IMG/VR virus record: IMGVR_UViG_3300042922_000335
Location: 1-31,062 of that record
Source of the DNA: a virus
Direction: 5' to 3' (one strand)
Length of the DNA stretch: 31,062 nt
The notes under the pieces are model-generated. The model was not told the origin of the DNA and did not search any database. It saw only the letters and a list, made by a program, of their open reading frames with translations. This document shows, in pieces, positions 6,467 through 30,426 of this stretch (positions within the stretch are counted from its first letter, which is position 1; every line of letters begins with the position of its first letter). Both the position numbers and the translations under genes were made by a program.

Positions 6467-8905
6467 TTATCCCTCCCCTGGCATTGGTGTACCGTTGCTA
6501 TTGATATAGTCCTCAATTTCTTTAATAAGCTTGAAGAGCTGCGGGAGCTCCTTAATCTTGCTAAAGTCGGTGGTCAATACAAATTTGTCAATTGTGATTC
6601 CCTTGTCGCTTTCCTTTTCTTTTACGGATTCCCTTGATTCTCTGGAAACCTCTCGTAAATCAATTTTCTTGAGGGGCTTCCTTCCACTAGAAGTGTCAAT
6701 CTTTCCAAGTCCTTTTTCTACCGCCTGGTAAGGGATGTCGTCGCCTTTTTCAATGCCTTCAGCAATGGTTGTCATTGTCCTATGTCCTGAGAGCGTCAAG
6801 TCACTGAGAGGGCCTTCTTTGGCATCAGAGAAAGGAAGGAGCTTTCTTACATTTTTAAAGATACCCTTAACAGCATCTACCGGAGCAGAAGCAGCACTCT
6901 TTATACCATCAACAAGCGTATGTATAATTTTAGCACCACTGTTACGAAACCACTCCGGCAGACCAGAAATAAAGGTCTTTACATTGTCAATACCTTCTAC
7001 AAAAGCACCTTTTACCCTGGTCATTAACCCTTTGAAAAAAGCTACAATGGTATCCCAATGTGTAATGATTAGTAATGGTATTCCAATAAAGGGCATAAAG
7101 GCAGCAATTGCTATTTGCAACCACAAGGGCATCCCAGAAAATAAATTCTTTATCCAGTCAAAGCCTGCTTTTATACCATCTACAAATCCATTCCAAACGC
7201 CCTGTATCCAGGCTACAACAGTATCCCAATTCTGCCATAAAAGAATGATTGCTGCTATGAGTGCCACAATTCCTATTACAATCCATGTAACGGGATTAGC
7301 GAGCAAAGCCGACGTAAATCCCCATACTGAACTTATTAGTCCTGGCATAGCTGTTACGGCAGTTCTTATAGCTTGCTTTGCCATACCTACAAGACCAAGT
7401 GCCATATTTTTTAGAGCATTGGCTCCGTTAATGGCTGCGGTTTTTGCCATACTTGCTATACTTCCAGCTACATTCCTAATACCTGATACTGCCGTTGATG
7501 CAAAGCTTTTTATATTACTAAATCCTTTTTTCAATCCATCACCAGCATATAGAGCTTTTATGTAAATTGTATCGCATAGTCCAGGTAATGCCATCAAAGC
7601 AAGACGAAAACCATTTAAAAAACCTGCTGTTTTTGTAAATACAAGACCAACACCGCCAATAACAGCAACTAGAGTACCACCTACTGTCAGGAATATACCT
7701 ATTCCTAATACAACAAGCATTATATTTCTAACTAAATCTTGGTTTTTATCTATCCAATCACTGACGTTAGCTAACACTTCTGAGCCTTTATCAACCATCT
7801 TATTGTAAGTAGGTAATAAGGTATTACCTATACTTTCTGTAACATTGTGTATACGCTGCGTAAGGGTCTCGTAACGATCTGGCTCAGTTTGATTAATAGC
7901 ATTCGCCATTTCTTGAGTGACTGCTGTACCTTTACCCATTGAATCATATAGGGTTAAAATATTTTTTTGAAGGTCTCCGGTTTTCGAGTACATGAGGTCT
8001 ATCAATGCAACCGCTTCATCAGAACCAAAAGCACTCTGTATATCCTGTTTTTCCATAGCATCTAAGGTTTCCCCATACTTGGATTTTAAGATACCCAGTA
8101 TCTCTGGCATTGAACGTAGCTGCTTGTTGGAATCTATGAAAGATAGACCTAATTCATCCCCTGCTTTAGCAGCCGTTCTCAAGAATGCTCGGTACTTTGT
8201 TCCAGCCTCAGAACCACTCATAGTAGCTTGCAGCATCCCAAGTATTGAGAGCTGCTCTTCAAGGGGGACATTCGCTGTAGTTGCTGCGCCGCCAAGAGCA
8301 GTGACAGACTCAGCCATACTTGAACCGGATGCCTTAAACGTTAAAATTGCCTGTGCCATACCAGCAGAGAATATTTCAGCAAACTCAATATCTGATAAAT
8401 CTGAATAAAAATCCTTATAGATACCGTATCCCGTTGCAAATAAGGATGTCATTTCATCAATTGTGGAGCCCGTTGCCTTTGCTGTAACACCTGCTATTTC
8501 TGTGTATTTGGCAATACCAACTTCGTTTAGGCTATCAATACCACCTTTTATATCCACGGCAGCGGATAAAAACTCAGGCTTAGTAGTTCCTGCCCAGGTA
8601 TTTGAAAAATCCGTTGCCGCTTTCTCAAGGGTTTTTAAATCTTTAACCCCCATTGAGCTCAATTCACCTAGCGCACGCTTGGTATCAAACGTTGCTTTCA
8701 CTGGTGATAGGGCTGCATCGGTTATCTGAGCACCAACACCCGCCACCGTAGCCCCTACTTTTGTCATGCCTCCGAATGTTTGTTGTAATCCTTCTAGCTT
8801 AGATACAGAACCACCAACGGAAGATTGAACCCTTGACATCGGGCCAGTTAAATTATCAACCATATTCATTATCAGTGATAACTTAAAAACAGATTCTAAA
8901 CTCAC
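6467..8905 (-). CDS. tail tape measure protein (812 aa)
   Basis: The longest gene. The GTG at 8905 is preferred as start because AGGTGA lies 8 nt upstream and the protein then opens MSLESVFKLSLIMNM, typical of this family. Residues about 50-380 contain the TP901-type core (FDTKRALGELSSMGV, SSMAESVTALGGAATTANVP, LGMLQATMSGSEAGTKYRAFL). Hydrophobic segments lie near residues 395-424, 540-558 and 594-616. Like other tape measures it should span the tube lumen, set tail length and be injected first. About 800 residues would imply a tail of roughly 120 nm by the usual 0.15 nm per residue rule; that figure is an inference. Confidence 0.92.
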   Translation of the reverse strand: MSLESVFKLSLIMNMVDNLTGPMSRVQSSVGGSVSKLEGLQQTFGGMTKVGATVAGVGAQITDAALSPVKATFDTKRALGELSSMGVKDLKTLEKAATDFSNTWAGTTKPEFLSAAVDIKGGIDSLNEVGIAKYTEIAGVTAKATGSTIDEMTSLFATGYGIYKDFYSDLSDIEFAEIFSAGMAQAILTFKASGSSMAESVTALGGAATTANVPLEEQLSILGMLQATMSGSEAGTKYRAFLRTAAKAGDELGLSFIDSNKQLRSMPEILGILKSKYGETLDAMEKQDIQSAFGSDEAVALIDLMYSKTGDLQKNILTLYDSMGKGTAVTQEMANAINQTEPDRYETLTQRIHNVTESIGNTLLPTYNKMVDKGSEVLANVSDWIDKNQDLVRNIMLVVLGIGIFLTVGGTLVAVIGGVGLVFTKTAGFLNGFRLALMALPGLCDTIYIKALYAGDGLKKGFSNIKSFASTAVSGIRNVAGSIASMAKTAAINGANALKNMALGLVGMAKQAIRTAVTAMPGLISSVWGFTSALLANPVTWIVIGIVALIAAIILLWQNWDTVVAWIQGVWNGFVDGIKAGFDWIKNLFSGMPLWLQIAIAAFMPFIGIPLLIITHWDTIVAFFKGLMTRVKGAFVEGIDNVKTFISGLPEWFRNSGAKIIHTLVDGIKSAASAPVDAVKGIFKNVRKLLPFSDAKEGPLSDLTLSGHRTMTTIAEGIEKGDDIPYQAVEKGLGKIDTSSGRKPLKKIDLREVSRESRESVKEKESDKGITIDKFVLTTDFSKIKELPQLFKLIKEIEDYINSNGTPMPGEG

Positions 8906-8909
8906 ACTA

Positions 8910-8938
8910 TTGCTCACCTCGTTTCTTGATGGTATAAT
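8910..8938 (+). promoter_or_regulatory. promoter of the plus-strand membrane-protein gene
   Basis: A perfect -10 hexamer TATAAT (8933-8938) lies 17 bp downstream of TTGCTC (8910-8915, 3 of 6 matches to TTGACA), with TGG just before the -10. The predicted start is near 8945, giving a leader of only about 15 nt that contains the ribosome site AAAGGAGGG. It overlaps the 5' end of the tape-measure gene on the other strand, so the two transcripts diverge here. Confidence 0.7.
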
Positions 8939-8959
8939 AAGGAAAAAGGAGGGATACAA

Positions 8960-9199
8960 ATGATAATATTTATTACTATGATAAAAGTAATAGTCTTTGC
9001 TTTATGTCTGGGTGCAATTATCTCAGTTATTGTCTTAGTTCCAATGTTTTTATATACCATTCCTTATACATTGTGGGTGGGGCGTGAAAACACAATGGGT
9101 AGACAAAAGGATAAACAAAAGGAAAAAATATTTAGTGCCGCCAAGAATGCGACTAAACTTTATAAATCATGGATAACAAGACAGAAACCGACCATATAG
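8960..9199 (+). CDS. small membrane protein, autonomous moron in the tail operon (79 aa)
   Basis: The only plus-strand gene inside the late operon. It has its own promoter, a strong AAAGGAGGG site 6 nt before the ATG, and a terminator whose loop holds the stop codon. The protein is strongly hydrophobic over residues 1-40, broken by Pro28 and Pro35 (one long or two short membrane segments). The rest is a Lys/Arg-rich tail (RQKDKQKEKIF, ATKLYKSWITRQK), so the C-terminus is predicted cytoplasmic by the positive-inside rule. Base composition is more AT-rich than the flanking tail genes. This is the layout of a moron, a lysogen-expressed cargo gene; superinfection exclusion or a host-envelope effect is a guess. 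I do not recognise the family. Confidence 0.8.
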   Translation: MIIFITMIKVIVFALCLGAIISVIVLVPMFLYTIPYTLWVGRENTMGRQKDKQKEKIFSAAKNATKLYKSWITRQKPTI

Positions 9200-9213
9200 A
9201 GGTCGGTTTTTTT
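9185..9213 (+). terminator. intrinsic terminator of the moron
   Basis: Stem AAACCGACC (9185-9193) pairs with GGTCGGTTT (9201-9209) around a 7-nt loop, followed by a T run to 9213. The T run is on the plus strand, so it ends the plus-strand transcript; on the minus strand no U-run follows, so late transcription should pass. Confidence 0.88.
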
Positions 9214-9804
9214 AATCTGAGAACACTTTTGAAATTGCTCTCGCCATAATATCTTCCTCAACCTCTTCCAAATACCTTGCCCGGGCGAAGAGCTCTAAAA
9301 ATTCATCAAAGTGCAACTCCCCGATATTATCTGGCAGAAGAGCAGGGGGGACGAACCTGTGAATCTCAAGCGTGGCTGCTTGTATAAAGTCCGCCTTCAC
9401 CCTTCCGAGCAGCTCCTCTACAGTTTCATTAAATTTGCATTTTTAGAAAGACCAAGCATGGAGAGCAGCTTTTCACCAGCACTTAAAGCAAGAGCCGGAT
9501 ATTCCTCAAGGTCTGCCTCTAACTTGCTTCGGTGTTCCGGGACAACATTATCAAACATAAAAGTTTTAATGGCTTTTGTCATACCGTTGGAAGCCGTTTT
9601 CACATAACGGTCATAGCTTGCCGTTGTAGGCTTCTTAAAAATATAAGAGACTTCAATTTCTGTATCATCGTCAGGCTCCAACGTCAATTTAAGCTGGTAT
9701 ATCTTGTCATACTTTTTCTTAAAATCTTCCAAGCTCATACCTGTATCCTTGCTCTTAGCTTCAGTTGCTACCTCTGTACCTGTTTTCATTATGTTCTCAT
9801 CCAT
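9212..9804 (-). CDS. tail assembly chaperone, long -1 frameshift product (GT-like, about 197 aa)
   Basis: The short chaperone frame (stop at 9418) overlaps a second frame that is open from just upstream and ends at 9212. A -1 shift at AAATTTA (9436-9430) would join the first 125 codons to a 72-residue extension beginning NETVEELLGRVKADF. The extension has no good start of its own: the only candidate, GTG at 9400, has a purine run directly against it with no spacing. Two overlapping frames just before the tape-measure gene is the classic G/GT layout of tailed phages, where the long form recruits tube protein to the tape measure. The shift itself is inferred. Confidence 0.75.
9418..9804 (-). 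CDS. tail assembly chaperone, short form (XkdN/DUF6848-like, 128 aa)
   Basis: Start at 9804 is chosen because GGAGGT lies 7 nt upstream of that ATG; an in-frame ATG 21 nt earlier has no such site. The protein has a hydrophilic N-terminus, then FKKKYDKIYQLKLTLEPDDDTEIEVSYIFKKPTTASYDRYVKT, typical of small chaperones that follow the tube gene in Firmicutes contractile-tailed phages. It ends ALSAGEKLLSMLGLSKNANLMKL. It is located between tube and tape measure and is predicted to bind the tape measure and prevent early tube polymerisation. Confidence 0.8.
   Translation of the reverse strand: MDENIMKTGTEVATEAKSKDTGMSLEDFKKKYDKIYQLKLTLEPDDDTEIEVSYIFKKPTTASYDRYVKTASNGMTKAIKTFMFDNVVPEHRSKLEADLEEYPALALSAGEKLLSMLGLSKNANLMKL
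9430..9436 (-). other. -1 ribosomal slippery heptamer A AAT TTA
   Basis: Read on the minus strand, frame-0 codons are GCA AAT TTA ATG AAA CTG TAG. The heptamer A AAT TTA has the exact X XXY YYZ form in the correct phase and lies 9 codon-bases before the frame-0 stop. After a -1 slip the ribosome continues AAT GAA ACT GTA into the downstream frame. A possible stimulatory stem downstream pairs GCTGCT with AGCAGC around 9375-9414, which I judged only by eye. Confidence 0.75.
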
Positions 9805-9838
9805 TGTAAAGACCTCCATTGTCATTTATTTTGAGATA

Positions 9839-25799: not shown

Positions 25800-26774
25800 T
25801 TAGAGCATCATCATGTTAGATGCCTGACTTATTACATCAAGAGTAATTTTATCTTTACCACGTTCCTGAAGGATACGGAAAACGTTATTGAGTGTTCGGT
25901 CGAGCAATCTAAAGCATCCAGTTTGATGATTGCACGCTCTGGCTTTCAATTCAGCGAGTGCATCTTCCTCCACTTCATACCCTTCAAGAAAACTCTCAAC
26001 CTCTTTATTCGTAAGCCCTTTAAGGCTTGCATAAAAGTCTACACGGTTTGCAAATCTGGTAAGATAGGATTTTATTTGTGCTTCAAGCTTGGGTTCTCCG
26101 GCTATTACCATTCCAACATCTGTCTGGTCAAATATAGCCCTTAGAATTTCCATTTTCTTTTGTGTATACTTGCTGATAAGCTTATCCGCCTCATCAATAA
26201 CCAGGAGATAGCCACGGTTAACGTTGAAAAACTCCCGGATACCGTTGACACGTTTCCATATAGTTCCGTAGGTTGTAGGAATACCAAGAGACCTTTCTAT
26301 TGCTTCTACCAGGTCACGGCTGCTCATAGTATCATCACACTCAATATAAGCAACACGAGGCATTTTTGAGTAATACTTCAAAGCATGGGTTTTTCCGTAT
26401 CCTGACTTACCAACTACAATCCCAAGTCCTATGTATTCTTGACAGGAGCTGCACACACCTATAATATTCTGAGCATCGTGGCTCTCAAAGAAACTGGCAC
26501 GCTGTTTTACAACTCGAAAAGTAGGTTTTTGCTCATTGGATGCAGTAGTGTTCTCACCAGTAGCATCCTGAAGGAAAGCGGAAAGCTTGGATTCCAATTC
26601 AGTCGAATCACTATCATATTTATTCGCCAGATACCTTGATACGGTTGTACGAGAATAGTTTATATTACTTGCAAGTTCCGTAATGGTCATGCCCTTACGC
26701 TTTATGTATTCATTTACTTTTTCTGCTATGGTCTTTATTTCGCCTGTATAGGCTCTTGCTGCTAATGCTTCCAT
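25800..26774 (-). CDS. transposition target-selector ATPase, MuB-like (324 aa)
   Basis: An N-terminal HTH (about residues 15-60: IAEKVNEYIKRKGMTITELASNINYSRTTVSRYLAN) precedes an AAA+ domain. Walker A is GKSGYGKTH (about 122-130) and Walker B is LVIDEADKL (D194, E195). The C-terminal part has DQTDVGMVIAGEP (sensor-like) and LTRFANRVDFYASLKGLTN. This matches MuB, which binds target DNA as an ATP-dependent filament, delivers it to the transposase and gives target immunity. The ATG has GGAGG 8 nt upstream and the gene follows the transposase by 18 nt. Confidence 0.93.
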   Translation of the reverse strand: MEALAARAYTGEIKTIAEKVNEYIKRKGMTITELASNINYSRTTVSRYLANKYDSDSTELESKLSAFLQDATGENTTASNEQKPTFRVVKQRASFFESHDAQNIIGVCSSCQEYIGLGIVVGKSGYGKTHALKYYSKMPRVAYIECDDTMSSRDLVEAIERSLGIPTTYGTIWKRVNGIREFFNVNRGYLLVIDEADKLISKYTQKKMEILRAIFDQTDVGMVIAGEPKLEAQIKSYLTRFANRVDFYASLKGLTNKEVESFLEGYEVEEDALAELKARACNHQTGCFRLLDRTLNNVFRILQERGKDKITLDVISQASNMMML

Positions 26775-29900: not shown

Positions 29901-29929
29901 ATTTTATACCACAAATGAGAACTTGTCAA
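29901..29929 (-). promoter_or_regulatory. early lytic promoter
   Basis: On the minus strand, a perfect -35 TTGACA (29929-29924) and -10 TAAAAT (29906-29901, 5 of 6 to consensus) are separated by 17 bp. This is the strongest promoter for the early operon, with a predicted start near 29894. The operator O1 fills the spacer, so repressor binding should block polymerase. Confidence 0.85.
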
Positions 29930-29951
29930 CAATAAGTTCTCATTTGTGTGG
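29907..29951. promoter_or_regulatory. paired repressor operators O1 and O2
   Basis: O1 is TACCACAAATGAGAACTT (29907-29924), lying exactly in the spacer of the early promoter. O2 is the inverted copy AAGTTCTCATTTGTGTGG (29934-29951). Fifteen bases of the arms are perfectly complementary, and O1 and O2 centres are 27 bp apart. They lie between the early and repressor genes, where repressor and Cro-like protein act. The exact repetition shows they are a specific binding site. Confidence 0.85.
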
Positions 29952-29982
29952 TTTTTATCTAATATTTTAAGGAGGTTTATCC

Positions 29983-30426
29983 ATGAATGAAAGCTTTGTT
30001 GATATAGGATTGAGGATTTCTGCTCAAATGGAAAAACTAAAATTAAAGCAAAAAGACTTATGTGAAGATACTGAAATATCCAAAAACGCTATAAGTAATT
30101 ATGTTAATGGTAATAGGATACCGGATACAAATTCAATATATAAACTATCGAAAGCATTAAATGTTTCCATGGAATGGTTACTAACAGGAAGTGATTCTAA
30201 CATTACCACAAATGAGAACTTTACTGAAAAAGAGACATTGGAGGAAGACGAAGAAGATTTATTAAACGGATATAGAGAATTAAATGACCGTGATAAACGA
30301 GAAGTCTTAGCTTACATAAACATGAAAAAGGACTTGCAGAAGAAGAATATCAAGTCCAAGTCATCAACTTCCAGAAATGGAAAAGGCAAAACGGGAGAGG
30401 AAGCAGCAACAAGTGAAACTGCTTAA
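29983..30426 (+). CDS. lysogeny repressor, XRE HTH (147 aa)
   Basis: AAGGAGG lies 7 nt before the ATG. Residues 8-65 are an XRE/HTH_3 domain: ISAQMEKLKLKQKDLCEDTEISKNAISNYVNGNRIPDTNSIYKLSKALNVSMEWLLTGS, with recognition helix near ISKNAISNYV. The C-terminal part is polar and acidic (EKETLEEDEEDLL), then a Lys/Ser-rich tail (SKSSTSRNGKGKTGEEAATSE). It has no S24 peptidase domain, so RecA-stimulated self-cleavage is not expected. The gene points away from the early operon, and its leader carries the operators, suggesting autorepression. Codons about 74-80 encode a third operator copy. Confidence 0.93.
   Translation: MNESFVDIGLRISAQMEKLKLKQKDLCEDTEISKNAISNYVNGNRIPDTNSIYKLSKALNVSMEWLLTGSDSNITTNENFTEKETLEEDEEDLLNGYRELNDRDKREVLAYINMKKDLQKKNIKSKSSTSRNGKGKTGEEAATSETA
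30204..30221 (+). promoter_or_regulatory. third operator copy inside the repressor gene (O3)
   Basis: TACCACAAATGAGAACTT occurs here exactly as in O1 (18 of 18 bases). The site lies 297 bp from O1 in the same orientation and within the coding sequence, in codons for TTNENF between the HTH domain and the acidic C-terminal part. A chance 18-base match in 31 kb is negligible. It may support DNA looping or block elongation of the repressor's own transcript. Confidence 0.75.

Follow-up and report, generated by a model that had tools for sequence, protein, structure and literature searches.

The proteins gp15 of HK97 and Ltp of TP-J34 are described in PMC10883804 as blocking DNA injection, a block that is overcome by changes in the tail tape-measure protein (TMP), which is named there as the target of Ltp. 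HK97 gp15 is an annotated moron product of 62 aa with one N-terminal hydrophobic stretch, and its gene, which has a terminator, comes after the frameshifted tail chaperone and before the TMP. Ltp, a surface lipoprotein, and Sie2009 of Tuc2009 are small envelope proteins of Gram-positive prophages that have also been proposed to be morons (PMC10883804, PMC3952083); the passages of these two papers that deal with them give no location beside the TMP for their genes. A membrane-localised block of genome entry linked to the TMP is, in turn, the feature of SNIPE, a DUF4041 membrane nuclease of the host-defence type (PMC13190303).

Here we analysed a window of 31,062 nucleotides, by which we mean the whole stretch of viral DNA under study. 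It belongs to a Mu-like temperate myophage of Bacillota, with a Mu transposase, a Mu portal, a gpT capsid, a CI-type repressor, a sheath and Baseplate_J, and its tail genes are on the minus strand. As read from the sequence, the gap between chaperone and TMP (8910-9213) contains on the plus strand a promoter, a Shine-Dalgarno sequence, a 79-codon gene and a terminator:

8910-8915, plus strand: -35-like hexamer TTGCTC, which agrees with the consensus at 3/6 positions and overlaps the opposite-strand Shine-Dalgarno of the TMP (from sequence)
17 nt, plus strand: spacer between the -35-like hexamer and the extended -10 (from sequence)
8930-8938, plus strand: extended -10 TGGTATAAT (from sequence; position conserved in relatives)
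8946-8952, plus strand: Shine-Dalgarno AAGGAGG, separated from the ATG by 7 nt (from sequence; conserved in relatives)
8960-9199, plus strand: small gene of 79 aa, ATG at 8960 and TAG at 9197-9199 (from sequence, ORF and dN/dS)
9185-9213, plus strand: intrinsic terminator (from sequence; recurs in relatives)

The surrounding genes to which we refer below are the following:

6467-8905, minus strand: TMP (matches to phrog_28 and PF10145), start GTG 8905-8903 set from alignment
7586-7630, minus strand: TMP residues 426-440, which closely follow the first hydrophobic segment (about 393-423), with the densest TMP differences against the near-identical phage L033
9212-9420, minus strand: second (T) ORF of the chaperone, stop at 9212 (family match, phrog_8523)
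9418-9825, minus strand: tail assembly chaperone, DUF6848 (family match)
29983-30426, plus strand: CI-type repressor gene, which shares the small gene's strand

The T ORF is probably produced by a -1 frameshift, judging from the sequence. A slippery A AAT TTA lies at 9430-9436 on the minus strand, just before the chaperone stop, and is consistent with such a frameshift joining both chaperone ORFs. Upstream of the repressor gene there is a long inverted repeat, ACCACAAATGAGAACTT...AAGTTCTCATTTGTGTGGT (about 29910-29955), that may be an operator or a terminator, and a MuB-like ATPase (25800-26774, minus strand) has a helix-turn-helix match at its N-terminus. A search for an operator shared by the cassette promoter and the repressor region returned only chance 10-mers. 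The first-pass annotation had stated that every other gene is on the minus strand, which is correct for the tail operon; over the whole window it does not hold, given the plus-strand repressor gene.

The locus resembles that of HK97 gp15 in its chaperone/TMP slot, in having its own terminator, and in a product of about 60-80 aa in which a polar tail follows one hydrophobic segment at the N-terminus. In contrast, gp15 is encoded on the sense strand and the small gene is antisense; the tail of the small protein is basic; HK97 is an E. coli siphophage and the window comes from a Mu-like contractile-tail myophage of Bacillota; and exclusion is proven for gp15 but putative for the small protein. 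Alignment of the family profile with gp15 using hhalign gave no match and, since the two proteins are unrelated in sequence, the likeness is one of position and kind only. The small protein would also join Ltp and Sie2009 as a small envelope protein of a Gram-positive prophage; however, no lipobox was seen in its family, which we compare with Ltp and Sie2009 by description only, and TP-J34 is a siphophage, unlike the phage studied here. With SNIPE it would share the TMP-linked entry block at the membrane, but it is too short to hold a nuclease domain.

In the terminator hairpin, the arms AAACCGACC (9185-9193) and GGTCGGTTT (9201-9209) enclose a loop that contains the small-gene stop codon; the 5' arm corresponds to the last sense codons of the gene (the KPT codons), and the T-run (9207-9213) overlaps the stop of the second chaperone ORF. 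With the promoter reaching into the TMP ribosome site and the T-run into the chaperone stop, the unit fills the gap almost exactly, and for the same reason the small-gene transcript would stay out of the neighbouring coding sequence. Consensus scanning is weak by itself (13 promoter-like sites found vs 7.9 expected); it did not call the small-gene promoter, because the -35 matches only at three of six positions, and it listed the terminator hairpin in the minus reading only. It is therefore the comparative evidence, namely recurrence, motif position and purifying selection, that identifies the unit as real. Promoter, ribosome site, gene and terminator recur together in dozens of other phages, so that the plus-strand unit proposed in the first-pass annotation is borne out, and TGnTAnnnT is found at -36 to -27 of the small-gene start in 24 of 42 relatives, vs 1.05 expected from shuffles. 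In addition, dN/dS of the small gene is 0.03-0.31 in informative pairs, indicating a protein gene under purifying selection, on which ground we rejected an incidental ORF.

The same data bear on the possibility that the promoter or the transcript is what matters, by interfering with or insulating TMP and chaperone transcription, and that the ORF is incidental. Such an RNA-level device would fit the overlaps with the TMP ribosome site and the chaperone stop. However, the dN/dS values, a protein architecture that is kept down to about 20% identity and a transcript that stops before reaching coding sequence make it extremely improbable.

In the 33 members aligned, this architecture comprises an N-terminal hydrophobic helix, which closes with an invariant PY, then a basic linker, and finally a helix at the C-terminus that bears an ATKLY-like motif (NATKLYKSWIT..KPT in the window protein). 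AlphaFold2 predicts helices at 2-45, 50-54 and 57-73 (pLDDT 84.5, pTM 0.55). The tail has a median net charge of +6.5, in agreement with the earlier description of a basic-tailed membrane protein, and by the positive-inside rule it should be cytoplasmic. The profile search of the protein suggested in the first-pass annotation did not yield a curated family: searches by sequence of Pfam, PHROGs, NCBIfam, PADLOC and PDB gave no convincing match. The best weak matches were to DUF2852 (E 0.0017, in 9/33 members), and the others were isolated single-member matches. A fold search with the predicted structure found nothing in PDB and nothing below E 4.5 among viral structures, and tblastn against annotated phages and plasmids gave only two chance-level matches at E 9. 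The family has apparently not been described before.

Short hydrophobic-basic proteins include membrane toxins, and the PADLOC model for a 4TM effector matched one of five members weakly (E 0.0084), so we considered that the gene could encode a small membrane toxin or a lysis or abortive-infection effector. This is improbable since the unit has no antitoxin or control gene, a lethal product from a constitutive extended -10 promoter would be untenable in lysogens and the effector match is weak and confined to that member.

To follow the gene in relatives, viral contigs were searched with the TMP N-terminus, which gave 192 relatives; in the best 80 of these the chaperone-TMP gap was scored with profiles of the second chaperone ORF and of the small protein, leaving 75 loci after removal of duplicates. 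The slot was occupied in 44 of these 75 non-redundant loci (gap of 304-412 bp, all antisense) and empty in 31 (gap of 3-106 bp), counts that are not population frequencies, as they come from the best 80 of 192 relatives and from a TMP query alignment to which occupied loci contributed most of the sequences, and as the most divergent small proteins were admitted on iterative profiles plus position. None of the 75 loci had a gap of intermediate size or another gene in the slot. On the TMP tree 7 presence/absence changes are needed, 6 of them forced by well-supported branches. Among the empty-slot Mu-like Bacillota phages, which have the same tail gene order as the window, is FP_Mushu, with a TMP N-terminus 65% identical and a chaperone-TMP gap of 60 bp without a gene. 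FP_Mushu produces virions (PMC5883640), and the small gene is therefore not needed for tails.

These results weigh against a tail-assembly or TMP-handling factor placed antisense by chance. The gene always adjoins TMP and chaperone and its divergence tracks that of the tail genes, as such a factor would, but the relatives that do without it, the virions of FP_Mushu and a lysogen-type promoter of its own, on the strand that does not suit late expression, make this reading very improbable. A structural tail part was rejected because of the empty loci and the FP_Mushu virions. The first-pass annotation had named conservation of the gene in all related phages as a structural part as the finding that would speak against it, and had proposed looking for relatives in which chaperone and TMP are adjacent; such relatives do occur. 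Its term moron also fits a complete autonomous unit that is present or absent between the same two genes.

Relatives found with the small protein alone all have the gene antisense between chaperone and TMP; culturable bacteria that carry such relatives include Ruminiclostridium papyrosolvens C7 and Lutispora thermophila. Outside this slot it was not found in phages, plasmids or 391 Clostridia genomes, which contained three carriers only, all already known. More distant phages with the same TMP type (a Vibrio phage, SNW-1, K139 and HP2) have no annotated antisense gene there. Judged on these comparisons, the small gene belongs to an autonomous, slot-locked, antisense and selected accessory gene family of Mu-like Bacillota phages. 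In the chaperone-TMP gap of L051 the small gene is frameshifted and pseudogene-like, as in a loss in progress. Two empty loci, L031 (4510-4560) and L100, retain, directly behind the chaperone stop, a strong hairpin that can be read as an antisense terminator and is possibly the scar of a lost cassette. The genome of Paenibacillus sanguinis (G003) has two copies of the gene (L116 and L120), probably in two related prophages that would be a natural test of co-residence.

The AT-rich composition of the gene had been taken to suggest a recent gain. Small-gene GC is indeed below TMP GC in 43/43 measured relatives (by about 7 points on average); however, it follows the GC of each phage (r = 0.93), the gene diverges in step with its flanking tail genes (r 0.66-0.88) and it is not found outside its slot. 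GC tracking and congruence with the flanks point to long residence with losses and not to recent acquisition, and losses together with allele swaps fit better. Such a swap is seen between the window and L033, which diverge by at most about 10% across most flanking tail genes and by 29% within the small-gene coding sequence, with the promoter and terminator ends well conserved on either side; this pattern indicates that small-gene alleles are exchanged between phages.

Furthermore, cassette distance correlates with TMP 1-60 and again with TMP 301-480, the region around the first membrane segment. For the first correlation linkage would be a sufficient explanation, because residues 1-60 adjoin the cassette. 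When the flanking genes were taken out, the correlation was much lower at TMP 121-300 and 481-720 than at 301-480, where, with the chaperone ORF and TMP 1-60 partialled out, a partial r of 0.21-0.27 was left (1-2/500 permutations as high). The window and L033, near-identical phages with different small-gene alleles, show their densest TMP difference at residues 426-440, and L083 and L092 show the same trend. Conversely, L021 and L028 have cassettes 97% identical and TMP 421-450 93% identical, although TMP 61-360 has been exchanged. In that pair the exchanged block is the PhageMin_Tail part of the TMP (61-360), with 63-73% identity vs 93-100% elsewhere in the TMP. The signal is modest, the TMP windows were picked post hoc and the 421-450 patch of the TMP varies in general, so that the co-variation with TMP 301-480 is suggestive only, and consistent with TMP-directed action.

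The main rival explanation is lysogenic conversion without exclusion, in which the membrane protein would alter a function of the host envelope (transport, secretion or stress) and so help the lysogen. The same anatomy, an autonomous unit encoding an accessory membrane protein, fits it, and no family assignment favours exclusion. On the other hand, a gene of general benefit to the host needs no such slot and this one is found solely beside the TMP, and the cassette correlates with part of the TMP; we regard conversion of this kind as possible but on the unlikely side.

The best explanation, which we hold tentatively, is that the gene is a moron expressed in the lysogen whose product is a membrane exclusion protein acting on incoming TMP or DNA. 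What makes exclusion plausible is that this slot is taken in HK97 by gp15, a moron with a proven role in exclusion. According to this, its own promoter would keep the small gene on in the prophage state, and the protein would sit in the cytoplasmic membrane, basic tail inside, and block DNA entry of related phages via the hydrophobic part of the incoming TMP, as gp15 and Ltp do for their targets. Because of the antisense placement, late transcription would yield no small-gene mRNA and would probably oppose small-gene transcription, and the block would fade while virions are made. Repressor immunity already guards against close relatives, which we count against exclusion. A more specific proposal, unlikely as it stands, is that of a slot-locked family of entry blockers, with each allele fitted to the membrane segment of the adjacent TMP and an antisense position that acts as a switch, on in the lysogen and silenced by late tail transcription.

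Two unrelated groups, the HK97-type siphophages of E. coli and the Mu-like myophages of Bacillota, thus have a gene for a small accessory membrane protein in the chaperone/TMP gap. Naturally swapped alleles and empty sites are ready-made pairs with which to address TMP specificity, and the fixed antisense orientation raises the question of how phages shut off self-blocking proteins while virions are assembled. If the genes of both groups are TMP-directed exclusion genes, the chaperone/TMP gap would be a predictable site in which to seek new exclusion proteins, whichever host the phages infect.
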